64,000 nucleotides of DNA, taken from the NCBI GenBank assembly GCA_026874595.1, contig CM049315.1, positions 67,093,916-67,157,915 on the forward strand, read 5' to 3'. The DNA comes from Sipunculus nudus. Lineage: Eukaryota; Annelida; Sipuncula; Golfingiida; Sipunculidae. Below the pieces are notes generated by a model. It saw nothing but the letters and a program-made list of their open reading frames with translations, had not been told where the DNA came from and made no database searches. The position numbers and the translations under genes were made by a program. Below, piece by piece: positions 1,097 to 56,800 of this stretch. How positions within the stretch are numbered: position 1 is the first letter of the stretch; each line of letters opens with the position of its first letter.

Positions 1097-1187
1097 ATGG
1101 ACAAGAATCCATCTTCTCCATTTGTGATAGCCAGAACTTTGATGAGGGACTTCAGAGATTGCAGAAGAAGAAAGATAATCTGATGGA
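1097..1187 (+). CDS. RAD50: RAD50 exon a (coiled coil before hook)
   Basis: Acceptor TTTTAG at 1091-1096 and donor GTGAGT at 1188. The exon enters with 2 nt of a split codon and leaves with 2 nt. It reads GQESIFSICDSQNFDEGL and on to KKKDNLM, matching the RAD50 segment with the DxCxSQxF pattern before the hook. Its 3' end and donor are copied once more 63 bp downstream. Confidence 0.9.
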
Positions 1188-4100
1188 GTGAGTTCTCATA
1201 CTTCATTCACAGCACTTCTCTGTTGATAGGCTCAGTATTATGCTGATGGAGTGAGTTCTCATACTTCAATCACAGCACTTCTCTATTGATAGGCTCAGTG
1301 TTATTGTGATGGTGTTATTTGGTTATTGCAAGGTTCCCATATGCCTGAAATACCTTAATGTATTTTCAAGTCATTTAAAGCTCATGAATTTAGCTGATTT
1401 GAAAATTCCCTGGAAAAAGACCTTGAATTCCATTTTCATGGTGTAACTGCTCTCTAATGGCTGGTTATTTAAGACTTGATCTCATTATTTTTTTAAACTA
1501 GACTTATAAAAATGGGGAATAAGAAAATAGAAAATGAGCATGATAGGACAACTAAGGGAGGGAGGGCTAGTGAAGGAGGATGTGCCAAAAAATGGACTTT
1601 AAGATCTGAATTAATATCCTGGAAAAACATTTTAAAGACATTAAAAATGATAAAATTTTTGAGAACCCTATATGGTATTCATGAGAAATCATTGGTATAG
1701 ACAAATTTGTGTGAGACAGCAGGTTGGTGTGCGTCTCTGGTTCTGCTTGAATTCAATTACTCTAACCATATTTTTTCTTCCAGTTTGCATGTTTGATGAA
1801 TAAGTTAAATTTTTTAACTTGGTAGTTCAGGAAAAGAGGATAAACTTGTAAAAATAGTTGTTTTGTATACAGGTTCTATTATTTAAAAAAATGTACTTTA
1901 ATGAGTAGTAAAAAAATGTTGGCCGGATGAAATTATTTTTGAAGGTTTGTCATGAAAAAGACAGAATCTAAGAAATTTTATTTATGTATTTGTAAACAGT
2001 CAAAAGGGGGCTTTACTGGCATCTGAGCGCATGTTTACCAAGTACGTGAATAAGTTGCAGCGAGAGGACCCACCGTGCCCATTGTGTAATCGCTGCTTTG
2101 ATGACCAGAAGGAGGTCCAGGACCTGATATATGACGTAGGTGATGGGGAGGTCATTGTATTACGGTGGAATCCCACACTTGCGACCACCTATGAGACTGA
2201 CCAGAGTGGTCATAAATTAGGGGTGGTCTTAAATTAGGGGTGGCCCTAAGTTACCAGGATAGTATCTTTTGGACCAAAAGAAGTCACCATACACGGGTCC
2301 CCAGATCCATGCTCTCTTGTAAAGGAGGTCAGATTAGCCATGGGCTTTTGACCAGTTCTACTTTTAAAAGAGTTTACCATAAGTTATGGAAAAAGTTCTT
2401 TGACAGACACCCATATTGTGGGGTGGTGGCAAGAAGGGGTTCCACTGCCTTGAAAACAAGAGAAAACCCTGAAACTGAATTGGGACTTTTCAAAGAAAAA
2501 AGTCAAGTAATTTAATAAGTCAAATAATTCAAGTAAGGAATTTGATAGGTCCAAAGAGAATCTGGTCTATTTATGTTTTGTTTCAGGAGCAAACTGTATA
2601 CCCACTGGACGATTTGCTATTTAGCGTTGATATAGCTTAAATTAATTAATATCAGGGTAAACTCCACAGGAGTTTAGGTAAGGGGTTTATTTGGGACAGG
2701 GAGTTTCATTTTAATGAATTGCTTGAAACCTTTATAGTGGAAAAGTACACCCATAAATTATATTTTTAAATAGTGCGTCTTTGCAGATTTCAAGAACAAT
2801 AAAAGATTATCTGTAGAGCACTTAACCATTATTCTGAGTAAGTCTTTCAGTGACATTACAAGCATGACAAGAGGAGATGTGAAAAAACCCTCTGTAGCTG
2901 CAGGAACCTAAATGGTACTCAGCAAATGATCCTTGTAAAAGCCATAAAAAAATGCAGAAAAAACAATTGAAGCCTCAAAGTAAGATTATAGATTTTAAGA
3001 AACTGCAATGTACTATAAGCTCATCAAAAAAAAAACACTCTTAGTGTAACTGTCGCTATTTTAATTCATTTTACCTTTTGGTGTTAATTTAATGGCTAAT
3101 AAGAGCTGTTGATTGTATGTTATTCAGATCAAATCATTGCACTTCTGGTCAGTGTACTCTCTGCTGACAGTAGCACGTAGCAGTTTTATATATATATATA
3201 TATTCTTTGCTACAGCTAACACAAAAGTTGTCAATGGTCCCAGAAAAAGTGGCAACAGCAGAAAAAGAATACACAGAAACAGAAACCAAGTATGTTTCCA
3301 TGATTCAGTTAAAGCCTACTCGTGAGAAGGTAAGTCCAACAGCCAGCAGGTCATACACATGGCTAATTGTTACACACATTAACTAGAGAGAACTCTGTGT
3401 GTGTGTCATTCTTTGGAGAAAAATAAAAAAAATGTATAATTTATTAAAATGTATAATTTATTAAATATATATATGGATGAACATAGAAATAGTGAAACTG
3501 GTCACCTGTGACACACAAGTCAGATGTTCTACCGGCTTCGCTGTTAAAGCAAGCTTCACTACCAAGTCCAGAAGGTACACTTTTCTGTGCATGGTTACAT
3601 TTACCCCCCTCTCCAGGAATGTTCTGTCTCTAGAATGTGGGACTTTACCCCGGGGGTCACTCAAGTGATCTGGGTGGGGCATTATTCCACACCACCAACT
3701 CATCCCAAAGCTGCCACAGATGTAACAGGTGAACATAGAAATAGGGCCAAATGTTCATTCAAACCCGTTGCCTGTGACACACAGTCATATGTTCTACCGG
3801 CTTCACTAATAAAGGAAGCTTTACTAGCAACACCAATAGGAATGCTTCTTTGGACATGATTACATATAGCTTATACAAGGATTACCTCTAAAGTGTAGCC
3901 ATCAGTTTCTCTTGGTGTTTAATAACATTGAATTCTGCCACAAGATGCTTTGATTCCAAACAAAACAGATGGAGCACAAGCTGACAGAAATTAAAATCCT
4001 GCATGCTCAAATAGATCAGGCCCCATATATGACCAGCACTAACTTGCCTTAAGATGTGTTTCCATAAGTTTTTATGAGGATCAATAAATACGCAATATTT

Positions 4101-7100: not shown

Positions 7101-10100
7101 ATATGGGTTGGTTGTTTAGCTGGCAGGGAGTGGGGGGTTGGAATAGTACATTTAGTTCAAGCTGCAGTCAGGTTCAACATTTCTCACAGATTTATCAAGC
7201 TCACACAAACATAACACTTTACAAAGCTTCATAGCAACTTTAATACCTACAACATCCGATTGAACATCGTCCAAGTGTTATTGACACGAGAAGACCTCAA
7301 CTACCCAATTATCTAATATAAATTACACTAAGGTTGCTGTACATAAACAGTGCAGAAAAGATCGAGGAAGCAATCTGTATCATATCTAACAAACATTAAC
7401 AGTTTCTGTGTTTTATGACAGTTTCAACATGAGATAGACTGTTGATGTTATCAGTGTATGTTGAAGTGTATATAAACATAGTGGCTATTGGTTCACCTTG
7501 TTTAGATACCATTGTATAGTGTTAAGTAGGTCTTTTGTATAAGTAAGTACCTTAACTACCTGTTAATTGACTTAGGGTAATGAACATATGCCAGAGTTTA
7601 AGATCACAGCTACAAAAATAGGTTGTCAACACAAGGATTAAAGCAGATTTGCATAATCCCTTGCCCTTAAACACACTCAAGTATGGCTTACTCACAAAAC
7701 TTCACTTGCAGTTAAATACCAGATTACCAGCTGTATAGTATTTAACAAGAACTTAAGTGTTTTAGACAATATTGAAGTTTCTGTTACAGTTAAATTCTAG
7801 ATTACTTTCTTTACTCTAATGAAGTAACATTCAGACTTATATACATTCCAGTGGCATATAACAAATGAGCCTTTAAGAGCTTATATAGTATGTTTATTAA
7901 GTCAACAGAATAATATGAACAAATGTTGGTGAGTAAACATGACCATATGTTTGCTTGTACAACAGTTGCATCAACAGATTATTAAAGTTTTGTAAATGCT
8001 GCTGTGTGCGAGGTATATATTAATAGTGTTGTTAAAAAATAATCATTCAACAGATTACCAGACTTTTGTTGCTTCAGTTCTAAATTATGTGATAAGCCAT
8101 GCCTGACAAGGCCTGTTCATATATAAAAACCCAGTGTCTGCTACCCCATGAGGGTATGAATGATTTTAACATGTCAGGCCTTATTAAACATTCAGCATTT
8201 GGAAGTGCAATCAGTGTACAAAGTATAAAATCAACAAATCTTGTTTGAGAATAATGTGTAACCATGTTGTTCTTTATCAGTATGCTATGTTTAATATTGT
8301 AAGGGTTTGTTAAAAGTACAGGCTTTACAAGTGTTAAATCATTCAAATTTCATTTGATCCTTCCAGGTCATACATATACATGTCATACTGTCAGGCTTTG
8401 TTTTTTTTATATCTCATGTAATATGTGATGTTATTAACTTGTTTGTGTCTGTAACTGCTTGTTAATATATTTTAGTGCATCATCATGATTATCATTAAAC
8501 ATTAACATTTACAAGTTTCCCATGGAATACAAATCAGAATACTTGGAAGACAGGTGCTTGCTGTAGCTTTCTCGGAAACGTTTCATCTGTCTGACCAGTT
8601 GCCGTCTTCGTTTTGGTTGCTGGAACCTCTCTGTGGAATCTGTGTCACCAAAAATGTCCAGGATACATGGGGTTGATGGTGACTCTAAATCAGACGTGTT
8701 ACTTGGTGATGTTTCTATGGGGTTTAGTCCAGTATCTGGTTTCATGAAGGTGACACCCTGCTGACGTTTCAGGACTCGCTTTTTCGGCCGCACTGGAGTC
8801 TGTTCAGGCGACTTTGTGGTTCTCCAGCTTTCCATACCAGTGGCAAGGCTGCTAACACTGCACGTTTCAGAAGAGAATTCAGATTCTTGTTTTGTAGTTG
8901 GAGCAATTGTATCATCTGAGCGAAGAACAAACGCTTCAACATCAGGTATCACAAAGGTCTTGTTGAGGTAGGCTACCTCATCTTTGGTTGATTTTATATT
9001 TTTCTTTAGACTAGATTCTGTTCGCTTACCTTTGCAAGACATATCATCAGTGTCTGTTGTACCAGATGGTGGTCTGTTCATGTCTATGTCATAAGTGTCA
9101 CTCATGCAGCAAGTACAGCAGCTAATATCACTGAGGTAGTGAGATGCCTTAACACCTATATTGCCCGAAACAGATTTGTGGTTGGAGCTGTCTGATGAGT
9201 AGTTGACTGTGCTGGAGAGAGGCAGACAAATGTCAGAACCAGAGTACTGCTGACGGAGGTTACCCTCAGACACTTTTATGATACTGCTGATGTCTTGGGT
9301 GGTTTTCTTCTGTGGTGTGTCCAGTTTTACAATGAAACTGAAGTTAACGGTCTGGTCGGGTGGATGCTGTTCACTGAAGCTGTAATTGCTGTCTGAGAGT
9401 TCGGCGCTGGGAGCGTAATCCAGGGTTACTGTGTCCCAAACAGATGATACTGCAGTCGTATTATCAGTAATCTTTCTCATGTGACCCTTCCAGGCCAGCT
9501 GATTGGCTGCCACAGAGCGTACATTTTGTCGTACCAATGGGCGTGACTGGAAATCGGCATCACTGCCCTGGTACTTCATGCAAGTTTTTTTTGTTGATTC
9601 TCTAAAAGCCTTCGATACAGCTAATGACCTCATAGACTGCTTATTGATTCTCTTCCTTTGGGGAAAGGGCAAACACATGAAATTGCAGTTCCTCTTGCCA
9701 GTGGCATGGATGCTGTGCTGTGTCTCATGCTGCATCTGGCTGATTGTCTGGGGCTGATTCCTTGGCAACTCCATCTTTATCACTTCATTTAAGGTCAGCA
9801 CCTCCTGTACCAAAAGATAGAAATTAAACTACATGTATTTACTTTTGACAAGACTTCAATTGATAGAAAAATAAATATTTGATTTTTACCAGGTGCTTTT
9901 TGCTGTTTTCAGTTGAATATCACCAAAGACTAGTGGTACTGTTAAAATTATTCAGGTGACTTTATACATTTAAATTTTACCATGACATTTTGTTCATTGT
10001 ATACAATGAAAATTTGAATTAAGAACCCTGTATAAATTAATCCTGGATGAGGAAACTGAGGTGATATTAACAAGTCATAAAACACATCAGACCAAACATG

Positions 10101-35800: not shown

Positions 35801-38800
35801 ACCATGTTGGTGGCAAACTAGTCGGGCGTACCAACCGCTTTGCTAGCAAAGCAAGCTTCCCTAGCGAGACAGTTTGGTCTGTTTTGTGTTTTTGGTTTGT
35901 GTCACCCTGTGGTCTGTTTTGTGTTTTTGGTTTGTGTCACCCTGTAACACACTTCCTCTTAAAGAACGTTCTGCTATCAGAACAAGACTATCCAAGAGGT
36001 CACACCTTCAGGGTGATCTTGATTCTGGGGCCACAAAGTTTGCCGTCACATCGGAAGAGCCCCCATTTTGTTACGAAGGTAAATTGCTCAGGGGAAAACA
36101 CTGGGCCGATCTAGGTTCGAACCCATGTTGGTGGCTCACAAGTCCGGCATACCAACTGCTTTGCTAGCAAAGCAAGCTTCCTAGTGAGACAGTTCGGTCT
36201 GCTTTTATGTCACCCCGTAACAGGTTAACTCCTCTTTATTTTCCTATTTCAGATTTACAAGACCCATGATTAATGCAGATTGTGAGGCTGCCAGAACTGT
36301 ACTAAGTAATAATATTCATGATACTGGTTATATTTTAGATATCTGAGTTGGAGCAGCATGACATCCCCCGTCTGAGGACTAGTATGAAGGAGGCGGAGCG
36401 TATGATTGAGAAGCTGAGGTCAGACATATCTGGGGTAAGACATGAGCAAATGATTGAGAAGCTGAGGTCAGACATATCAGGGGTAAGACATGAGCGTATG
36501 ATTGAGAAGCTGGTCAGGGGTAAGATGTGAGCATATGATTGAGAAGCTGAGGTCAGACATATCAGGGGTAAGACATGAGCGTATGATTGAGAAGCTGAGG
36601 TCAGACATATCAGGGGTAAGATGTGAGCATATGATTGAGAAGCTGAGGTCAGACATATCAGGGGTAAGATGTGAGCGCATGATTGAGAAGCTGAGGTCAG
36701 GCATATCAGTAGTAAGACGTGACTAAACATATAACTGTTACCAGAGTTCTTGGTCTTTGGCTTATATTTATGTTACCAAGTGAATACTTGGTTGAAGTTT
36801 CAATGCAAATCAGTGGCATGAGTGGATTTATGCCTTTTAGCTCAACCAGATATGCATCCAGTGAGCTCATTTCCTGGCACAGCAGCACTGCCCTTCTATT
36901 GTCTGTCCTTAATTAGACTCCAGCCTTAGGAGGGAATGCTACAAAAAAGAAGAATGGTCTACATCTGTCCATCTATTCTTCAGTCCTCCCCCCCCCCCCC
37001 CTCTTTTATAAAATACCTCTATATCCCTTGCTTTTTTTACCGAATTTTGCATACATACTCATCAGATGAGGGACGTGCTGGTGGTCCCACCTCTGCACTA
37101 ATTTCTGCAATTCAAAATGGTATTTTCCACTTTCTTCTGGTAAGTCAATAAATAAGAAGACTTCAGCCTGCAACTCATATACAAAGATTCCTTGCAGCAA
37201 GGGTAATTGAATGAATACTATCAGTGTTGTAGTCGAGTTCATGCCTGCCTAGTCAAAGTTTGAGTCCTTTAGGTTCAAGTCCCAAGTCCACTGTCCAAGT
37301 CCTTTAGAGCTCTAGTCCAATCAAAATCTTTATTCAAAACACTTTTGAATTGGATAGTCAAGATTACCATGAATATTTCTGGTTTTGTTTACACATACTT
37401 TTGCTTTGATGTTTAAATACATTTAGCTCTTCATTCAGGGATAAAACTGTGTATATACAGTCCTGAATGTTTTCGTAATCTGTGAATAGTTCACATATAC
37501 AAGTCTCTATATATGAGTTTGCTTCCCATCTGAAGGTCCTGGTTTATGTGACAGTCTTGTTCCCTGGGACTCCAGATTGACAGGGCTGACATCATGAGTC
37601 CTGACCTCCAAGTCCGAATACAAGTTGGAGTCCAGGATCTCCAAGTCCAAGTCCCTGAAAGTGAAAAAAGTGGACTCAAGCCCTGATTGGAGTCCAAGTC
37701 TGGACTCAAGTCCGGACTCTAGTCCAAGTCTGGACTCAGGTCGTACATCACTGAATACTATATTCAACTGAATTATTTTCAAAATGATGTTTCCACAGGA
37801 CGTTGAATAAATTTGACTGCTTTTGAAAATATCTGATTTTGCATTGTTGCTTATTTGGAGCAAAATCTTTTATATCTTTTTATCTCGTTACCACTGCAGT
37901 AATCATTATCAGATTTTCCAGGCACATTGAAATTTGGCAAATTAAAGTAAATTTCTCTTAGTAAAGGGGGGGGCTTAAACCCTACTCTGGATTATCCTCT
38001 GATCATATAAAGCAGCTGTTGTTATAGAACTCTCTAAGGTTTGTGTTGATAAACATTCTGTAAATTTGACTTGACAGAAAGAAGAGGATCTGACTGTTAC
38101 ACAGAGTGATCTAGAGACGGCCAAGGCCCTTCAGCCTGACATGGTTATGATTGACCGCGATCAGTATGAGCTGCGAAACTGTGAAAGAAGAATCATATCC
38201 CAGGCTGCAAAGATAACAGGCGGAGGTATTGGACAGAATTGTTAAATGGTCGGGGGTTTGTTGGATCTAAAATATTTATATTCAAAATATAGATATGGTT
38301 TTTTAGCGAACCTGTGAGCTTATGTTTGGCGCAGCTTGGTCCGTCCGCCATCCGCCGTCCAGGGCTGGCTTTCCGCCTCCCATGGCTGTAAGTCAGAATC
38401 TGTCGGAGCTAGCAGCTCCAAATTACATGTAAGAATTCGTCACATGTGAAACTTGGTGCCCTGGAGCTTATTATTGGGTATCTGCATTAATTAAGATTTT
38501 TTAGAGAAAAAGCTTAAAAACCTTTAAAAATCTTCTTCTCTGAAACTGTCCAGCCAAATTGTCCAATATTTCACAGAAATGATCCCTGGAACAATCTCTC
38601 TCAAGTTTGTTCGAATGGTTCCAGTTCAGAGATTTTTGGCCAAGTTACAGGAGGTTGAACTTAGTCATCTGTCCAAAAAAGCACACTAAAATTAAAATCT
38701 CAAAAACGGCTGGAGCTATAATGACCAAATTTTATACCAATGTTTGTCACATATGTCATATCTGATTTTGAGGTATTGGTGGCGCCACCTACATTGATGT

Positions 38801-41800: not shown

Positions 41801-44800
41801 ACCATGATTCTTTGCATGGATATTGATCATGGAGTGTTTCATCAATTTCTGGAGATTGGTGGCGCCACCTATATTTTTTTTATTTTTTACGATTTTTTTT
41901 CTCTACTTTTGTGATCTTTAAACATTTGGTCATCTGTAAACAGGGCACAAATCATAATGACTGGACCTAGAATCTTCTGTCCTTACCTCCAGGGAAGCCC
42001 ATAAAAGGTCTACATGGAAACCCGAAATAAGGTCCCTGTTACCCATATTCTGTGAGCCATGGGGCTCTGAAGTACCCCCCAGAATAAAGATTTGGTCATA
42101 TATTAACAGGGCACAAATCATAATGACTGGACCTAGAATCTTCTGTCCTCACCTCCAGGGAAGCCCATAAAAGGTCTACATGGAAACCCTAAATAAGGTC
42201 CCTGTTACCCATATCCTTCATGCTCTGGGGCTCCGAAGTACTCCCCAGAATAAAGACTTGGTCATCTGTTAACAGAGCACAAATTATAATGACTTGACCT
42301 AGATTCTCCTTTCTTGATATGCTGGGAGGCCCCTGAAATGTCTCCTTGTGCACCTGAAATTACATCTCTGTTACCCATATCCTTCATCCTATGCGGCTTT
42401 GAAATACCCCCCAGAATAAACATTTGGATTTGTTAACAGGGCACAAATCATAATAACTGGACCTAGAATTTTATTTTTTGACATGCTGGGAGACCCCTGA
42501 AAAGTCATCTTGTAAACCTTGAAAATAGGTGTCTGTTACCCATATCCTTCATGCTACAGAGCTCCATAGTACCCCAATGAATATTGGATGATTTTATACA
42601 AAAGGTCAAGTTTGGAAAAAGTATTTCATTCAAATTTGACATTCAGATGATAAAATTACTTTTGTCAATGTCTTCCTGGTCAGCTGAGCGTCATGACCCC
42701 TGGGTCACTTGTTTGTGTCTGTTTCCACACATAAACCCACATATCTTGGGAACCGTTTGACCAATCAGGCTAAAAATTTTGCACAAATGTAGCCCTTTGA
42801 TAGCTTTAAAACATACACTAAAAATGGTGGCGCCACCTGCAACCATTTATGCACTTATCCACCTGAAATCCAAGCTCATATCTCGGGAACCGTTTGACCG
42901 ATAAGGCCAAAATTTTGCATGTGTATAGATCTCACATAGCTCTTCATCATAGGCAAAACTGGTGGTGCCACCTGCAACCATTTATGCACAGCATCCATCT
43001 GTTGAATTGCCTTGGGATAAAATCACTCATATCTCAGCAGTGGTTTGACTTTTCCACCTGAAATTTTGCAGGTATTTTACATCCTGGACAGCTTTCTCGA
43101 TTTAATGACAGGTGGCACCACCTACACTCACATTTACTCTGCAGACATCCAAGCTCATATCTCGGGAACCGTTTGACCGATTAGGCCAAAATTTTGCATG
43201 TGTATAGATCTCACATAGCTCTTCATCATAGGCAAAACTGGTGGTGCCACCTGCAACCATTTATGCACAGCGTCCATCTGTTCATCTGCCTTGGGATAAA
43301 ATCACTTATATCTCAGCAGTGGTTTGACTTATCCACCTGAAATTTTGCAGGTTTATACATCCTGGACAGCTTTCTCAATTTTATGACAGGTGGCGCCACC
43401 TACATTCACATTTACTCTGCAGACATCCAAGCTCATATCTCTGGAACAGTTTGACTGATTGGGCAAAAATTTTGCTTGTGTATAGATCTCACATAGCTCT
43501 TCATCATAGGCAAAACTGGTGGTGCCACCTGCAACCACTTATGCACAGCATCCATCTGTTGAACTGCCTTGGGATAAAACCACTCATATCTCAGCAGTGG
43601 TTTGACTTTTCCACCTGAAATTTTGCAGGTATTTTACATCCTGGACAGCTTTCTCGATTTAATGACAGGTGGCACCACCTACACTCACATTTACTCTGCA
43701 GACATCCAAGCTCATATCTCGGGAACCGTTTGACCGATTAGGCCAAAATTTTGCATGTGTATAGATCTCACATAGCTCTTCATCATAGGCAAAACTGGTG
43801 GTGCCACCTGCAACCATTTATGCACAGCGTCCATCTGTTCATCTGCCTTGGGATAAAATCACTTATATCTCAGCAGTGGTTTGACTTATCCACCTGAAAT
43901 TTTGCAGGTTTATACATCCTGGACAGCTTTCTCAATTTTATGACAGGTGGCGCCACCTACATTCACATTTACTCTGCAGACATCCAAGCTCATATCTCTG
44001 GAACAGTTTGACTGATTGGGCAAAAATTTTGCTTGTGTATAGATCTCACATAGCTCTTCATCATAGGCAAAACTGGTGGTGCCACCTGCAACCACTTATG
44101 CACAGCATCCATCTGTTGAACTGCCTTGGGATAAAACCACTCATATCTCAGCAGTGGTTTGACTTTTCCACCTGAAATTTTGCAGGTATTTTACATCCTT
44201 GACAGCTTTCTCAATTTTATGACAGGTGGCGCCACCTACATTCACATTTACTCTGCAGACATCCAAGCTCATATCTCGGGAACCGTTTGACCGATAAGGC
44301 CAAAATTTTGCATGTGTATAGATCTCACATAGCTCTTCATCATAGGCAAAACTGGTGGTGCCACCTGCAACCATTTATGCACAGCATCCATCTGTTGAAC
44401 TGCCTTGGGATAAAATCACTCATATCTCAGCAGTGGTTTGACTTTTCCACCTGAAATTTTGCAGGTATTTTACATCCTTGACAGCTTTCTCGATTTTATG
44501 ACAGGTGGCGCCACCTACTTTCACATTTACTCTGCAGACATCCAAGCTCATATCTCGGGAACCGTTTGACCGATTAGGCCAAAATTTTGCATGTGTATAT
44601 ATCTCACAGAGCTCTTCATCATAGGCAAAACTGGTGGTGCCACCTGCAACCATTTATGCACAGCGTCCATCTGTTCATCTGCCTTGGGATAAAATCACTC
44701 ATATCTCCGCAGTGGTTTGACTTATCCACCTGAAATTTTGCAGGTTTATACATCCTGGACAGCTTTCTCAATTTTATGACAGGTGGCGCCACCTACTTTC

Positions 44801-47800
44801 ACATTTACTCTGCAGACATCCAAGCTCATATCTCGGGAACAGTTTGACCGATTGGGCAAAAATTTTGCTTGTGTATAGATCTCACATAGCTCTTCATCAC
44901 AGGCAAATCTGGTGGTGCCACCTGCAACCATTTATGCACAGCGTCCATCTGTTCATCTGCCTTGGGATAAAATCACTCATATCTCAGCAGTGGTTTGACT
45001 TATCCACCTGAAATTTTGCAGGTTTATACATCCTGGACAGCTTTCTCGATTTTATGATAGGTGGCGCCACCTACATTCATGTTTACTCTGTAGACATCCA
45101 AGCTCATATCTCGGGAACCGTTTGACCGATTGAGCCAAAATTTTGCTTGTGTATAGATCTCAGATAGCTCTTCATCATAGGCAAAACTGGTGGTGCCACC
45201 TGCAACCACTTATGCACAGCATCAATCTGTTGAACTGCCTTGGGATAAAACCACTCATATCTCAGTAGTGGTTTGACTTATCCACCTGAATTTTGCAGGT
45301 TTATACATCCTGGACAATTTTCTTGATTTTATGACAGGTGGCACCACCTACATTCACGTTTAAGCTGCAGACATCCATGCTAATATGCAACACATCACGC
45401 TCTATTCCCCTTGCCACTTAATCCATGCCTCACTTCACCCGTCCCACTCTGATTTCTGCGGATACACATAGTGGCTTGTTGACTACCCATATTCTGGTTT
45501 TAAAATGTCCTAGTCTGAAACTTGCAGGTCAGAAACATCCATTTTGCTGAAATCATAATGACTAAGGTAGATATGCAGGACTTAGGAGGATCAATATTAA
45601 ATTTTAAAAATAAACCTCCATTCATACTCCCAAACTTTGCACAGGTTCGCGTTAGGCCTGTAGGCCTTGTTTGGTAACTCAAGGAAGTCTAAAATCTTCC
45701 AGTGACATCTAAAGCCTTAGTTAGAGCATTTAATATAAACTTTTTAGATAATTTCATGATTTTACATTGTTTGTAGTGAAACATTTTAGACAAATCTGAC
45801 ATCAGATATGGCCACAGGGCTGCCATTTTTTGAGAAACTGGCAATTTAGGAGCCCTAATTGAGGACCTTAAGGGTCTCAAACTCTAGTTTATCTTGTTTA
45901 TAGAAAATATTGTCATTAAATTGGACCCAGCTTTGGTATAATTATTTAACACATCATACTTCAAATTGAGTCAGATGAGAATTGAGATATATATCTGATC
46001 AGTTATCATAAGTGATGTTTCCTCTTACACAGTTGTGGGAGCCTTAAATAGTTAATTTGTGTGCCTGTTTCAGACTCTGATAGAACAATACAACAAGTGA
46101 CTGATGAAAAAGAAGACATCCAAGGACAGCTGTAAGTTATAAGATATAAGTACACACAAAAGCAGCTCCCTGGTGATAATATTGGCCAAGGCTATTGGCA
46201 CTACCGACGTGCAGATAAGAAGTACAATCCACGTGACAGCCTCTCCTATGATAATATAAAACCTAACAATATGGCTGGTAAATACCACCTTAGCATACTA
46301 CCTGAAAGTTGTAGGTGTTGGGTGATTTATGTAAACTTATTACTTACAGTTAAGACACATTCAGTGTATAAAACTGGAAAAGACATGGCCGGGCCAAACA
46401 CACGAATGTTCCTTGGCCAGCTGTCATGGCAGGTTTGTTTACCAATCTGGTGGAATGTTTATTTCTGTTCATATTTAAGTATTAAACTTTGCCAAGTAGT
46501 ATTAACTTTCACTAGTTAGGCTAAAGAAGAGGCTTAAAAATAGACTCAAAAATAGGCTAAAAAAGTTGGCATTAAAAAATTCTTTTAAAAATAGTCTTAA
46601 ATATCCCTAAAATCCTGTGTAACTTCAAGGCCTTGAAAAAGCTTGAATTAAGCTCTTTTTTTCAAATTTCTTTGAAATGAACTATAATGGCAGACCAAGA
46701 GGAAGGAGAGATACTTTAACCCGTTAGCAAAGATCTTACCTACACATAAAATAGTGAGTAAAAATATTAAATTGTGGGGAAATGAATCACTAAAAGGATT
46801 TAGGTAAGAGGCAATGAAAAAAAACCCTCAAAATATGAATTAATGTTTGTTTGGGGTAAAAACTTGATATTGAAGTTTTACAAAAAAAGAAGCATGAAAA
46901 CATTGTTCAGACAGGTCTTGCATTCTCCTGTCCAAGTTTGATAAGTTTTCCACTTTACTGTAAATACAAATTGATGTCTTGCATAAATGTAAAAATTCAT
47001 AAATGTAAAAGTTGCATAATTGTAAAAGTTTTATAACCCAATCTCTGAAAAGGTAAGCACTGCAAAATATCGGGTCAAACTAGGTTCAGTCAAAAGTCCT
47101 GTCATGCTCATATATAGTTATCACCTGTTGAAAGCTGTTATGTCAACCCCAGGTATGTTTAAGTCTCTTCACAGATCAAGATTTTACCATAATTTCAATT
47201 TAAAATTTGAAACTTTTACCTTTTAAACTTATAACATTTAAATCATATATTATTATAGAGATTCCATCAGTCGAAACTTAGAAAACAAAAGACAGAAGCT
47301 CAGCGATCACACAGATCGTATACAACGCCTCAAGACATCTGTGAACGCACTGACGGGAGACAAACTACAGATAGAGGGGGATCTACAGCAACAGTCCACC
47401 CTGAAAGATCGAAAAAATGAACTACATGCTCAAGTTACAACATTTCAGAGGGAAATCATGGTATAGTAGTCTTTTGTAGAGAGTCCTCAGAGGTCAAATA
47501 AGCTTACTTATGATGGTCCATAGCCCAGAGCTTTCTGGCAGAATACTACAATGGTGAACATGTTCAGCTGTTTTGAAAATCAGAATCTGAAGGTAATTTA
47601 GTACTTTGGCCAAAAATACCTCCTTGAGAGTAGGGATGATATCTGGGTGATGTTTTAGATTTATTACAGTAGTTTTCTAATTCACCTTTATGAGACCACC
47701 CATGGGACTAGCCAAAAGTGGTCTTAATTCGCATGTGGACTTATTAGGCAGCTCAGTTAGAACCAGTGTGAATGGTTTCAGTTCACTTAAGAGTGGTCTA

Positions 47801-50800
47801 AATAGACAGGTGGCCTTAATAGACAAGTGGTCTTAAAGACAGGTTCCACTGTATTTGGTTTCATTTGGGATGAGGTCGGTCAGTGCATATCAAGTGGGCT
47901 GGAGAATACAGATTGCATCATTGGATTTGTCTCTCCATTTAGAACGATTTGTAAGCCAGTTTGTCTGAAGATGGGTTTGCTGGTGTAGGGGGTCATACAG
48001 AATATTTTGAAAACTGGTACCCCTGACAAGGATGCCCAAGTTATGCTGGTTTGCAAAACCTCTGGAGAAAATTTCTCAAAAAGATGATGATTGGACTAAC
48101 CATGAATTCTATGTGACCTTAATCTCATATTCATTCAGTAAATAATCCAAAGCAGTTGCGAGCAACCAATCAAGTTACCCTTGGCAATGTGAACAGTCAG
48201 CCCCCTGACATGCACAATTTGCAGAACACTTAGTGTGCACAGTAACCCTGTCTGTACATTTTTCTAGGATATTTTTTATACAAAGGAGATCATATAAAAA
48301 GTTGCAGGAGCTATTCTGCCGACTGCTGAGTGAATAATATCTTAACTTGCACTGAATCCGCTTGAGACAAATAATCTAAAATATGGCAAAACAATTTGCT
48401 ATATTGTGATATATTCATCACTGGAGAACAAAGATATAGAACAAAGATTCAAGCTGATAACATCGTCAATTCAACGTCTTATGTGACCGACCATTGTGAT
48501 ATCACTGTTGTCCTATAAGTCGCGAGCAGACATGAAAACCTTCTGTGTAGGAGCTTTTGGGGTTCATTAGCATAATTAGGTCAAAGAGGTGGAGCATAAG
48601 TGCTGTGGTGGTTAGGTCAGTTGTCTTTGAAAATTTACTGTTAGTTCTTTTGCCATTAAAAGGAAGCCAGAGAGCAGCTGAAGCCTCTACAAGCCCGCAT
48701 GCATAAACTTCGAGCAGAAAGAGAGAAAATATCAGAAGAAAAGGATGAGCGCTTTGAACAGGACAGAAAAAAGGTGAGTGTGAAATTAGTCCTGTTGTTA
48801 ATGATTCTCCCGAGATAGCAGTTCACTGGATGCAGAGGTTGTCCTTATATTGGAGTGTTGATATGTTTAAGTCAAAATTCATGTCACTGACATAAAGGTA
48901 TTGGTTTAAAATATATATGAAATGGCTTGGTACTACGAGAAATAACTGTTTAATTGACAAGAGTATGGAGAGTTTGAATACCACTTACCAGGTTGTAGCA
49001 GGAAGAATAATTTATTGATCAGTTACATTTCCTGAAACTTGCATCTTTTGACCTTTTATAAATCTTGCAGTCTTGATTCCAAATATGACATAGAGCACCT
49101 GCCTGTACTTTCAGGGATTATGGTTTTATCCATCATGCAATCATTATTTGTTTATGTTGGTTTTGATAGTGCAGTTGAGATCCCTTGAAACAAAAATTTA
49201 CATTTTGTCTTTATAGAGCAGTGAAGTCAAAGAGCTGGCTAAGAATATAAGCAGGATCCAGGAAGAGGTGGAAAGGTGAGTAAACCATTTGTCCTGTGAA
49301 ATTATTTATGCACAAACATTAGATAGACAGTAAAACCTGAAAAATAGTTTAATATATTTTTAAGTATAGGTCCATTGCCAGTTTGTGACTGCTTATTGAA
49401 TGGGAGTGAAGGTAACCTTATGATAATAATGATATGTCATTTGAAGCCTTCTAGATTTTAGGTTTTTCACAGTGCTACGAATAATCAAGCAGTCATAACC
49501 TGTTGTTAAGACATTAAACCAAATGTCTCAAGTCATATCAAGGTTTCACCAATTTGCCTTAAGGCTCTGGTACAATCAGACCATGGACCTAGTACTCTGT
49601 AGACCACAATAACCACCAGGCTGCTTCGTACCAAGCATAAAAAAATTTACAACTGTTTTTTTCCCTGTTAGAAAATAGTTTGTATACATTATTATCTTAT
49701 AAGGTATACGGCTTGAAGATCAAGTCTCTAGTTTAAGGCAATAATTCAAGTTTTTACTGCAAAGGTCTTGACTTGTCTTTGAATTACAGGTACATAAATG
49801 ATGGCAAGGATGAAGAAATTGTAGAAACTAAAACACGTATGAAACGAGCAAAAGTCAAACTACAGGAGGTACAAGACAGTTTGAAACAGGTCCAAGAAAG
49901 TATCGACAAAATCAAGGAGGATCTAGCCACACAACAGGTAAGCCCTAAAGCAATACTGTTTTCCCCATAGATAATCCGCACCCGTAGATAATCCGCACCC
50001 CTATTCAGAGCTACAATTTCTGGGGAAAAACCTGTATACCTGTGTATAATACGCAGCTAGATTCTGACAAAATCCTGAATGCTGCAAATTGTTTTTGTGG
50101 TGGTCATTGAATATCCGCTCTCTTCGTGGGTGTGACTTTGTCAGTCAACACAAGTCTCTAAGCAGAAGATCATATTACTTGAATTAGCAAATTGTCTATT
50201 CTCCTCCAATTGTTAAGTGTAAAAAGGGGGATTGTGCCTGGACCGCCATTAACCAGGTATTGCAACACTTGTATTAAGCGTCACCAATGCAAGGCCGTTC
50301 GTGTCCAAGAAAAGGGGTCGTACAAATGTGTTTTAATAAAATATCATCCCCATTCTAACAAAAAAAACAGCAATGATAATTCTTAGTTACAGAATGTATA
50401 CAAAAACACAGGTCTCCTTTGATGTTAATCAAAGGGAAGCTTTCCATCATGTCTGGTAACAAACTGTGACGAGCGTGTCATAAGGAGAACTACTCGCACG
50501 GCACCCTAGTTAGCCAATTAATGCTAATCATAGAACAAACAGTCTTCATTAACTCAACACTGGCTCAAGTTGTTTAAATAGTCATTAGTGTATCACGGAA
50601 CATTTCCCACGGACAAGGACTGACAGGTGCAGGTATATCAGGTAGAAACGATCCCCTTTTGTGATTTAACACCACATGTAAAAATATGCCGCAGCGCCAT
50701 CAGCCGACATACATTGACATCAAAGGAGGTCAGCCAAGCAATATACCATCATGCATATTTCACAACGGCGATCTTCTGTTGTAAGCCATACTTAAGATGT

Positions 50801-53800
50801 ATTTTAATTATCTGAAATGAAAAAAAGTGAATCAAATCAATAATTATGTTGTTTTAATGCAAAATTTGTACAAGTAAAGTAAGTATACACTTTGTTTACA
50901 TAAAATCCTTTATTATGGCTCATCATCGGCTCACCGTATGAAGTTCAACCTGACTGAAAAAAAGTTTGGAAATTATGTCTCCATGTATAATACGCACCAG
51001 GGTTTTTTATTTTGATTCTAAGATGAAAAAAATGCGGATTATCTATGGGGAAAACGGTATACAGCAACATTTGGTGTAGTACAGGAAGCAATACACAGAT
51101 ACAGATGGTGTAGTACATGAAGCAGTACACAGCTACAGATGGTGAAGTACAGGGAGCAATACACAGCTACATATAGTGTAGTACAGGAACCAATACACAG
51201 CTACAGATGGTGTAGTACAGGGAGCAATACACAGCTACAAATGGTATAGTACAGGGAGCAATACACAGCTACAGATGGTGTAGTACAGGGAACAATACAC
51301 AGCTACAGATAGTGTAGTACAGGGAACAATACAAAGCTACAGATGGTGTAGTACAGGAAGCAATACACAGTTACAGATGGTGTAGTACAGGAAGCAATAC
51401 ACAACTACAGATGGTGTAGTACAGGAAACAAAACAAAGCTACAGATGGTGTAGTACAGGAAGCAATACACAGTTACAGATGGTGTAGTACAGGGAGCAAT
51501 ACACAGCTACAGATGGTGTGTTACAGGAAGTAGTACACAGGTACAGATGGTGTAGTACAGGGAGCAATACACAGCTACAGATGGTGTGTTACAGGAAGCA
51601 GTACACAGCTACAGATGGTATAGTACAGGAAGCAATGCACAGCTACAGATGGTGTAGTACAGGGAGCAATACACAGCTACAGATGGTGTAGTACAGGGAG
51701 CAATACACAGCTACAGATGGTGTGTTACAGGAAGTAGTACACAGGTACAGATGGTGTAGTACAGGAAGCAGTACACAGCTACAGATGGTATAGTACAGGA
51801 AGCAATACACAGTTACAGATGGTGTAGTACAGGAAGCAATACACAGTTACAGATGGTGTAGTACAGGAAGCAATACACAGCTACAGATGGTGTAGTACAG
51901 GGAGCAATACACAGCTACAGATGGTGTGTTACAGGAAGCAGTACACAGCTACAGATGGTATAGTACAGGAAGCAATGCACAGCTACAGATGGTGTAGTAC
52001 AGGGAGCAATACACAGCTACAGATGGTGTAGTACAGGGAGCAATACACAGCTACAGATGGTGTGTTACAGGAAGTAGTACACAGGTACAGATGGTGTAGT
52101 ACAGGAAGCAATACACAGCTGCAGATGGTGTAGTACAGGGAGCAATACACAGCTACAGATGGTGTGTTACAGGAAGTAGTACCCAGGTACAGATGGTGTA
52201 GTACAGGAAGAAATACACAGCTACAGATGGTGTAGTACAGGAAGCAATACACAGCTACAGATGGTGTAGTACAGGGAGCAATACACAGCTACAGATGGTG
52301 TGTTACAGGAAGCAGTACACAGCTACAGATGGTATAGTACAGGAAGCAATACACAGCTACAGATGGTGTAGTACAGGGAGCAATACACAGCTACAGATGG
52401 TGTGTTACAGGAAGCAGTACACAGCTACAGATGGTGTGTTACAGGAAGCAGTACACAGCTACAGATGATGTAGTACAGGAAGCAATACACAGCTGTAGAT
52501 GGTGTAGTATAGGAAGCAATGCACAGCTTGAGATGGTGTAGTACAGGGAGCAGTACACAGCTACAGATGGTGTAGTACAGGGAACAATACACAGCTGCAG
52601 ATAGTGTAGTACAGGGAACAATACAAAGCTACAGATGGTGTAGTACAGGGAACAATACACAGCTGCAGAAAGTGTAGTACAGGGAGCAATACACAGCTAC
52701 AGATGGTGTAGTACAGGGAGCAATACACAGCTACAGATGGTGTAGTACAGGGAACAATACACAGCTGCAGATAGTGTAGTACAGGGAACAATACACAGCT
52801 ACAGATGGTGTGTTACAGGAAGCAATACACAGCTGTAGATGATGTAGTACAGGAAGCAATGCACAGCTACAGATGGTGTGTTACAGGAAGCAGTACACAG
52901 CTACAGATGGTGTGTTACAGGAAGCAGTACACAGCTACAGATGGTGTAGTACAGGGAGCAATACACAGCTACAGATGGTGTAGTACAGGAAGCAATACAC
53001 AGCTGCAGATAGTGTAGTACAGGGAGCAATACACAGCTACAGATGGTGTAGTACAGGAAGCAATACACAGCTGCAGATAGTGTAGTACAGGGAGCAATAC
53101 ACAGCTACAGATAGTGTAGTACAGGAAGCAATACACAGCTGGAGATGATGTAGTACAGGAAGCAATACACAGCTACAGATGGTGTGTTACAGGAAGCAGT
53201 ACACAGCTACAGATGGTGTGTTACAGGAAGCAGTACACAGCTACAGATGGTGTAGTACAGGGAGCAATACACAGCTACAGATGGTGTAGTACAGGAAGCA
53301 ATACACAGCTGCAGATAGTGTAGTACAGGGAGCAATACACAGCTACAGATGGTGTAGTACAGCAAGCAATACACAGCTGCAGATAGTGTAGTACAGGGAG
53401 CAATACACAGCTACAGATGGTGTAGTACAGGAAGCAATACACAGCTGCAGATAGTGTAGTACAGGAAGCAATACACAGCTGTAGATGATGTAGTACAGGG
53501 AGCAATACACAGCTACAGATGGTGTAGTACAGGAAGCAATACACAGCTGCAGATAGTGTAGTACAGGAAGCAATACACAGCTGTAGATGATGTAGTACAG
53601 GAAGCAATGCACAGCTACAGATGCCGTAGTACAGGGAGCAATACACAGCTACAGATGGTGTAGTACAGGGAGCAAAACACAGCTACAGATGGTGTGTTAC
53701 AGGAAGTAGTACACAGGTACAGATGGTGTAGTACAGGAAGCAATACACAGCTGCAGATGGTGTAGTACAGGGAGCAATACACAGCTACAGATGGTGTAGT

Positions 53801-56800
53801 ACAGGGAGCAATACACAGCTACAAATGGTATAGTACAGGGAGCATTACACAGCTACAGATGGTGTAGTACAGGGAACAATACACAGCTACAGATAGTGTA
53901 GTACAGGGAACAATACAAAGCTACAGATGGTGTAGTACAGGAAGCAATACACAGTTACAGATGGTGTAGTACAGGAAGCAATACACAACTACAGATGGTG
54001 TAGTACAGGAAACAATACAAAGCTACAGATGGTGTAGTACAGGAAGCAATACACAGTTACAGATGGTGTAGTACAGGGAGCAATACACAGCTACAGATGG
54101 TGTGTTACAGGAAGTAGTACACAGGTACAGATGATGTAGTACAGGAAGCAATACACAGCTACAGATGGTGTAGTACAGGAAGCAATACACAGCTGTAGAT
54201 GGTGTAGTATAGGAAATCCTGCATAGGTTTTCTTTCAAGACAACATCAGCCCTTCTCTTAGTGGTAGTTATTGCTTGTAAAATCATGTTTAATGTTTAGA
54301 AGAAAAAAATGATCGGTGGTTGATTATAAATCAGTTAATATACATACCTACATATAAATGTGAAATCCACTGTATAGAATTAAACCTAAAATATTGACCA
54401 AGTATATTGAGTCTAACTTTTCACCATGTTGAAAGGTCGAGGTAGTGGCTGTGTTCTTGACACTTGTTTGGCTTTACTAGGTTAGGTTTTTATGCTGTTT
54501 GCTAATTTGTGTCTTGCTTTTCTTGTATCTTTTACAGGATTAGAATATTTTTTTATTGATAATATGACATCCTTGCATGTGCATGCATAATTGTTTGTGA
54601 TCAATTATGCAAATATGCCAACAAATTAACAGTTATGAAAGAATATGACTATTCATCAATATAATCAATTGGCACACCACTACATTGTCCGTAAGGGCAC
54701 AAATTTAACAGGTATTGCTCGAAGCTGCTACCTTGATACCCATATAAATGTGTATAAGATCTCCTTTGAGATATAAAATTAGATGATGTTGACCTATTTC
54801 TGCTAGCTGTAGGGTTAAAAAACATTGTTTGTTCCTTTGCATTAAAGCACAACATTGAATTAAGTGACTCATTCCAGTATATATCCCTGTCCTCATTAAA
54901 CAAGCCCAACCAGTTCAATGAAACTGTGTGTGACAGTTGCAAAATATCCTCACTGGCCTAGAGTTTCTTTATATAATCACTTGTTGGCACAGACAGGTGG
55001 AATAGAAATTATAACTTGACTGCACTCAGCACTCAAGCTTGATATATCTCCATAACTGCTACTTAAATATATTATTTAAGTCTTCATAAAATACTCGCCT
55101 CACCCAGAGGTTATACACTTCCAGGGTAGGCACAGAGCAAAGAACTGGAATCAGATCAATGAGAGTGTGGTATTGCATTGTGTATCCAGCTCCAAATTTG
55201 AAACATGCAACTCCCACTCTTGTGGGTCCAATTCTTGGCCCTGTGGTAGAACTGGTTAGACAGATGAGAGTGTGTCGCATATTTAAAAATTTAGAGCTGG
55301 ATGCACAGTGCAATACCACGCTCACATTGGTTTGATCACAATTCTTTGCTCTGTGCACACCCTGGTGTTCTTACCCAGAAAGTCTTACTATACAAAGCAG
55401 GGTTTACAAGGAGAGGGATCTGGGACAACTGCAGTTTATAACCACTGCATGATAAGCATAACCTGAATTATCACATGGTATTTTGTCTGAAAATATTCCC
55501 TTTTTAACAGGTCAAAGAGAGAGATCTTCAGGATAATTTGACTTTGAGAACAAAAGAAGCAGAGATTGAGAAAAAGGATGAACAGATCGTGACAGAACAG
55601 GAGAAACTAGGTGGGCTGGACCCGTCACGACTGGAGAGGGATCGTATGAAGCTGAGAGACGAGCAGGATAAACTACAGAAAGAGGTATCATGGTCAGGTC
55701 ACATGATCATATATTTTTATCACATGACTTTACACTTCTGACTTTCCTGGAATGTTTTCAGGCCTGTGCTTTCTTTTAGCTTTTATCTGCTTTCTGCTTA
55801 TAACCAAGGGAGCTATGATGAATGCTGGGGACCCTTGTGATTAAGACCTGAGGCAGGGGTCTTTGAGTTGCGAATCAATCAAACAGAATGCAAATACACA
55901 GTGTCAGGATTGTTCAAATGGAATGCAAAAACACAGTGACAGGATAAAAGTCAATTTCCCTAACCATTACAGCCAACTGTCCCATTATTGTCCCTCGCTT
56001 CCATGGAATGGGGAACGTATGATTTGGGTTTGTCTGTCTGTCCCTCTGTCTGTCTAGCTGTCCCTCTGTCTGTCTGTCAGGTTCGTTTCTGTGAGATAAC
56101 TTTCTTAAATATTATCTGATTTCATTCAGATTTGGGTCAGTGATTGCTCTCATGCATACCTTTGGTTGGGATTGGTTTTGGAGTGTCTATCTGAAAAATA
56201 ATTCTCTCCAGCTAAAACACAAAATTATAAAATTTTGGTCAAATTTCTCAGTGTTTTAGTTTTTATGTCAGCCTGCAGATGTCTCCACATGTCATAGTGG
56301 ATTTTGGTACTTTAAAAACTCTCAAAGTTTTTATGTTTGCCTACAGATGTCTCTACATGTCATAGTTATCCACTTATCATAATTTTAGTTGCTTATCAAG
56401 CACTAGCTGATAGACCCGTAATACTGGGCTTGTTACCAGGGTTGGGGAGATTTATTAACTGAGATGAGCAATGTTGGCTCATTTTTTTATTCTAAAAGTT
56501 AACAGAAAATATAGGTTTTCAATGGGAAACTATCTCCATAAGATATGTATAAACATTATGGCACGACTGCAGAATAACTCACGCACTGCTCTGAAGGAAC
56601 TCTCTGAGGCACAACACTTCTGTGAACAGAAAAAGTTTCTATGTACAGCTGCTTGTATCTTAATTTTGCCACTTACTTTCAAATTACATGAATCCTGAAC
56701 GTCATACCGTCCATTCGTATAAACTCATAACCTGGTGGGGACAGTGTGTGAGTGATCCTGCAGTCGCTCCAATATTTTTAACATTTATTTTGTCGGGCTG

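Follow-up and report, generated by a model that had tools for sequence, protein, structure and literature searches.

In the RAD50 gene of Sipunculus nudus, the exon designated d ends within a tandem array whose repeat unit carries the splice donor itself, which raises the question of which of seven consecutive donors ends the exon and what the use of the remaining ones would mean for the protein. RAD50 is a conserved repair protein with two coiled-coil arms that pair with each other. The window, i.e. the whole stretch of DNA that was analysed, comprises 64,000 nucleotides of contig CM049315.1 (assembly GCA_026874595.1), and 14 exons of RAD50 were assembled on its plus strand between positions 1097 and 62059. 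Joined at the first donor of exon d, these exons contain no stop codon and specify 533 residues, with the N- and C-terminal ATPase halves of RAD50 falling outside of the assembled part. The following exons constitute the gene model (a slash marks the splice junction):

1097 to 1187, plus strand, RAD50 exon a, located before the zinc hook; donor GGA/GTGAGT with its GT at 1188
2000 to 2135, plus strand, RAD50 exon b, carrying the zinc-hook motif CPLC
3216 to 3329, plus strand, RAD50 exon c, placed by local alignment and splice sites
36339 to 36434, plus strand, RAD50 exon d, 32 codons, phase 0/0; acceptor TATTTTAG/ATAT, donor GGG/GTAAGA
38078 to 38225, plus strand, RAD50 exon e, following exon d and entered in phase 0
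46074 to 46131, plus strand, RAD50 exon f
47259 to 47460, plus strand, RAD50 exon g
48663 to 48773, plus strand, RAD50 exon h
49217 to 49275, plus strand, RAD50 exon i
49790 to 49937, plus strand, RAD50 exon j
55511 to 55684, plus strand, RAD50 exon k
60548 to 60673, plus strand, RAD50 exon l
61490 to 61542, plus strand, RAD50 exon m
61974 to 62059, plus strand, RAD50 exon n

The assignment to RAD50 is based on two features of the deduced protein, namely a CxxC zinc hook between coiled-coil arms (CPLC in exon b) and a collinear match along the arm that follows the hook, extending over the 14 exons and 533 amino acids. The Pfam profile Rad50_zn_hook matched exon b with 19.6 bits (E 8e-4), which is under the curated cut-off of 24.3, and the local alignment of exon c scored 60 versus 30 for the runner-up among the frames scanned from 2136 to 36338. 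Exon d encodes coiled coil starting about 55 residues past the CPLC motif. An alignment with the human RAD50 sequence, which was checked separately, yielded 185 identities in 532 positions and one single-residue gap, none being located at the junction of exons d and e. Among the protein structures, chains named RAD50 were matched in 9q9h_A, 5gox_A and 9bi4_C. Residues 3-532 of the deduced protein aligned to residues 627-1157 of 9q9h_A (530 versus 531 residues), the displayed part of this alignment showing a single inserted residue, which belongs to the chain and lies at the zinc hook, and exons d and e matched residues 739 to about 819 without a gap. The more distant chains 9bi4_C and 7zr1_C gave weaker matches, and the displayed part of the 9bi4_C alignment contained several small gaps (one residue opposite exon d and three residues opposite exon e), so that a gap-free conservation of length does not extend beyond the human comparison. 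Exon d alone was uninformative as a query against the PDB. The 33-kb intron between exons c and d additionally contains an open frame of 439 codons on the minus strand (8512-9828), which is possibly a nested gene; its best Pfam match was CCDC47 with an E value of 0.044, under the cut-off.

The array at the end of exon d consists of seven tandem units at positions 36396-36720, each composed of the final 39 nt of exon d and the initial 9 nt of the following intron:

36396 to 36443, plus strand, array unit 1; donor 1 with GT at 36435
36444 to 36491, plus strand, array unit 2; donor 2 with GT at 36483, adding 16 codons in frame if used
36492 to 36528, plus strand, array unit 3, shorter by 11 bp; donor 3 with GT at 36520, shifting the frame
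36529 to 36576, plus strand, array unit 4; donor 4 with GT at 36568, past the in-frame TGA at 36528-36530
36577 to 36624, plus strand, array unit 5; donor 5 with GT at 36616
36625 to 36672, plus strand, array unit 6; donor 6 with GT at 36664
36673 to 36720, plus strand, array unit 7, the most diverged; donor 7 weakened to GTA/GTAAGA, with GT at 36712

A sequence-only reading of this region had described a seven-copy 48-bp array starting at 36402. The number of copies was confirmed, as was position 36434 as the last exon base, but unit 3 comprises 37 bp instead of 48 bp and the former start lies 6 nt inside unit 1, which begins at 36396. The same reading had noted near-identical donors in six of the seven units, and the donors of units 1-6 are in fact identical base for base (GGG/GTAAGA). 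The sequence GGGGTAAGA is likewise present in six of the seven units and replaced by GTAGTAAGA in unit 7. A search for the 39-bp core with at most three mismatches detected six occurrences in the window, all of them within the array, but not a single one in any of 100 shuffled sequences, so that the array cannot be attributed to chance. The shortened unit 3, with its deletion, is missed by this pattern. The 11-bp deficit of unit 3 (36492-36528) can be explained by one deletion along with one substitution; visual inspection alternatively suggests a loss occurring between two copies of TCAG, together with a missing AG. An open frame of 145 codons on the minus strand (36335-36772) spans the entire array, perhaps only because the unit length is mostly a multiple of three.

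The consequences of the individual donors follow from their positions. Use of donor 2 would add exactly 48 nt without a stop codon, i.e. 16 residues in frame, whereas donor 3 would add 85 nt, shift the frame and lead to a stop codon early in exon e, and donors 4-7 would include the in-frame TGA at 36528-36530. Accordingly, five of the seven donors (3-7) bring a premature stop, the frame being broken because unit 3 is 11 bp short. The earlier arithmetic, according to which the 16-codon unit remains open through unit 2 and later donors add a stop or shift the frame, was thus correct.

Comparison of the two in-frame versions of the protein points to the original end of the exon. With donor 1, the hydrophobic a and d positions hold one heptad register across the junction of exons d and e. 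Donor 2 moves the best-fitting register by +2 at the join of units 1 and 2, and this new register holds as far as the beginning of exon e; whichever of the two donors is used, another register change occurs deeper in exon e. An insertion had been expected to shift the coiled-coil register, and such a shift (+2) would indeed result, but the insert has heptads of its own, with which the beginning of exon e is in phase, and the break would lie at the join of units 1 and 2. In alignments with the human protein, the donor-2 version has slightly more identities than the donor-1 version (189 versus 185) but scores lower (371 versus 381 bits) and requires 17 gap positions instead of one. Since the donor-1 join is gap-free against human RAD50, keeps the register and gives the better score, unit 1 was most likely the end of the exon before the array expanded, and donor 1 is most likely the ancestral, protein-making site. 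Moreover, donor 1 is expected to be the main site because RAD50 is conserved and its length is kept, and an allele mostly using later donors would lose the protein.

The local sequence offers no reason for such a preference. The predicted base pairing of the donors with the U1 5' end amounted to -9.2 kcal/mol for each of donors 1-6 and to -4.5 kcal/mol for donor 7, in comparison with -5.4 to -12.6 kcal/mol for the other 13 assembled donors of the gene. The predicted RNA accessibility was lowest at donor 1 (0.009) and ranged from 0.02 to 0.11 at donors 2-7, with the highest value at donor 2 and a median of 0.016 for the region. RNA accessibility was consequently rejected as a reason for a preference of donor 1, which is the least accessible of the seven.

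The divergence of the units provides information on the age of the array. Pairwise identities range from 86% to 98% outside of the deletion, and of 16 changes counted from an inferred ancestral unit, 9 are located at the 28 CpG positions, out of 325 positions in all (p 5e-7 in a hypergeometric test, a value that is too small because the units share descent and are not independent). This is the pattern of methylated CpG decay, as it would be expected in little-constrained sequence, and the array is probably young and restricted to the species or its near kin.

With respect to these data, we consider it quite probable that the locus represents a young donor-bearing minisatellite generated by tandem duplication, with donor 1 making the normal mRNA and the other donors being used at a low level. 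We infer that a 48-bp segment straddling the boundary of exon d and the following intron underwent tandem duplication and expanded to seven copies, the first of which would be the original exon end, whereas the remaining copies would be exon-like sequence that is now intronic. The downstream donors are probably used at a low rate since five of them match donor 1 base for base; use of donor 2 would then yield the 16-residue insertion, and the stop-bearing mRNAs resulting from donors 3-7 would probably be removed by nonsense-mediated decay. Most likely, the downstream donors add only splicing noise and are minor or unused. The location of the array needs no selection, because tandem arrays occupy 18.5% of the window.

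Among the alternative explanations, a regular and functional RAD50 isoform with 16 additional coiled-coil residues, made via donor 2, appears unlikely. Unit 2 is in frame and open, donor 2 is identical to donor 1 and the most accessible by prediction, the a and d positions of the insert match the phase of the beginning of exon e, and the use of two downstream repeat units as donors has been reported for human IFI6 (PMC4526556). On the other hand, the insert would lengthen only one of the two paired arms and move the register by +2, and the length of RAD50 in this species is within one residue of human RAD50 over about 530 residues. As the donor-1 protein matches human RAD50 over this distance with a single one-residue gap, an insertion of 16 residues would be exceptional, and a functional insertion isoform made via the second donor is not supported.

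It is less likely still that the array tunes the dose of RAD50, with downstream donors giving stop-bearing mRNA that is decayed and the number of units setting the fraction. Five of the seven donors would indeed give a premature stop, and donors 3-6 equal donor 1 in predicted U1 pairing, but the way in which the units have decayed looks neutral, and as a general expectation a stop codon would be encountered in the majority of intron extensions. We regard it as highly improbable that the array is an assembly artefact or sits in a broken copy of RAD50, since the concentration of substitutions on CpG positions and the short deletion between units are not readily made by assembly errors, and the 14 assembled exons are open and joined in frame. 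Hardly more credence can be given to a length-variable splicing switch, in which the number of units would set the shares of normal, 16-residue-insert and destroyed RAD50 mRNA; if true, a repeat that itself relies on repair for its stability could in turn act back on the machinery of repair. With six identical donors of 9 bases in a single natural intron, and five of the six unit lengths being equal, the locus represents a clean natural experiment on spliceosomal choice between equal 5' splice sites. Among the literature matches listed, none was on point with regard to competing identical donors. If only donor 1 is used, the array is an ordinary minisatellite.

The human IFI6 minisatellite is said to provide multiple splice donor sites, as reportedly described by Turri et al. 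in 1995. The RAD50 array is similar in that a splice donor lies inside the tandem unit at an exon end, and differs in the gene affected and in the unit length, which is 48 bp in RAD50 and 12 bp in IFI6. The kind of array is already known from IFI6, and RAD50 adds another gene and a longer unit. According to PMC4526556, two downstream repeat units of IFI6 act as donors, giving three mRNA species; the IFI6 minisatellite is also cited in PMC3618361 for minisatellites interfering with splicing. Several mRNAs have been reported for IFI6, whereas most of the extra donors of the RAD50 array would bring a stop.

Tandem duplication across an exon boundary has furthermore been proposed as a route to new introns (the Rogers model), with the potato RdRp gene as a case (PMC4974935). 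As in the potato gene, the duplication in RAD50 extends across the border of an exon and an intron and increases the number of splice signals; the potato gene acquired a new intron with donor and acceptor, whereas the RAD50 array multiplies donors only. Within positions 36397-36726, no AG was found with at least 10 pyrimidines in the preceding 20 nt, and by this pyrimidine test the array supplies donors without a usable acceptor. A new intron inside the array was accordingly rejected, and none is expected, because no AG of the array has enough upstream pyrimidines.

The RAD50 donor array shares its tandem organization with the other minisatellites of the window and differs from them in that it includes 39 coding bases and a donor, only the following array also covering a RAD50 donor:

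1180 to 1312, plus strand, tandem duplication covering a further RAD50 donor, 2.1 copies of a 63-bp unit (TRF); extra donor with GT at 1251

The repeat unit of this array, which is unrelated to that at exon d, comprises the last bases of exon a together with the donor GGA/GTGAGT. Use of the extra donor (GT at 1251) would place an in-frame TGA directly after the exon, which suggests that duplications of this type appear at this gene without being beneficial. Tandem copies just downstream were thus found for two of the 14 RAD50 donors, and none of the remaining 12 has a near copy on the plus strand of the window (at most three mismatches in 20). Two donors of one gene duplicated in this manner would offer an inexpensive way into the question of how frequently splice sites are multiplied by tandem duplication. 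TRF yielded 54 rows, which together cover the above-mentioned 18.5% of the window; 42 intervals were copied by hand for the coverage test, the remaining 12 rows being nested within them. Two of 14 donors and none of 14 acceptors lie inside arrays, with 2.6 donors expected by coverage (p 0.76 for two or more). When the test was restricted to arrays with a period of at least 10 and a span of at most 500 bases (4.1% of the window), 0.6 donors were expected versus two of 14 (p 0.11), so that neither array set shows a significant excess among the 14 RAD50 donors. Larger arrays are located in other introns of the gene, namely a 34-bp unit with about 93 copies and 89% matches between exons j and k (51061-54215) and a 278-bp unit with 9.1 copies and 94% matches between exons e and f (42868-45386), the latter being preceded by 336-bp and 166-bp arrays.
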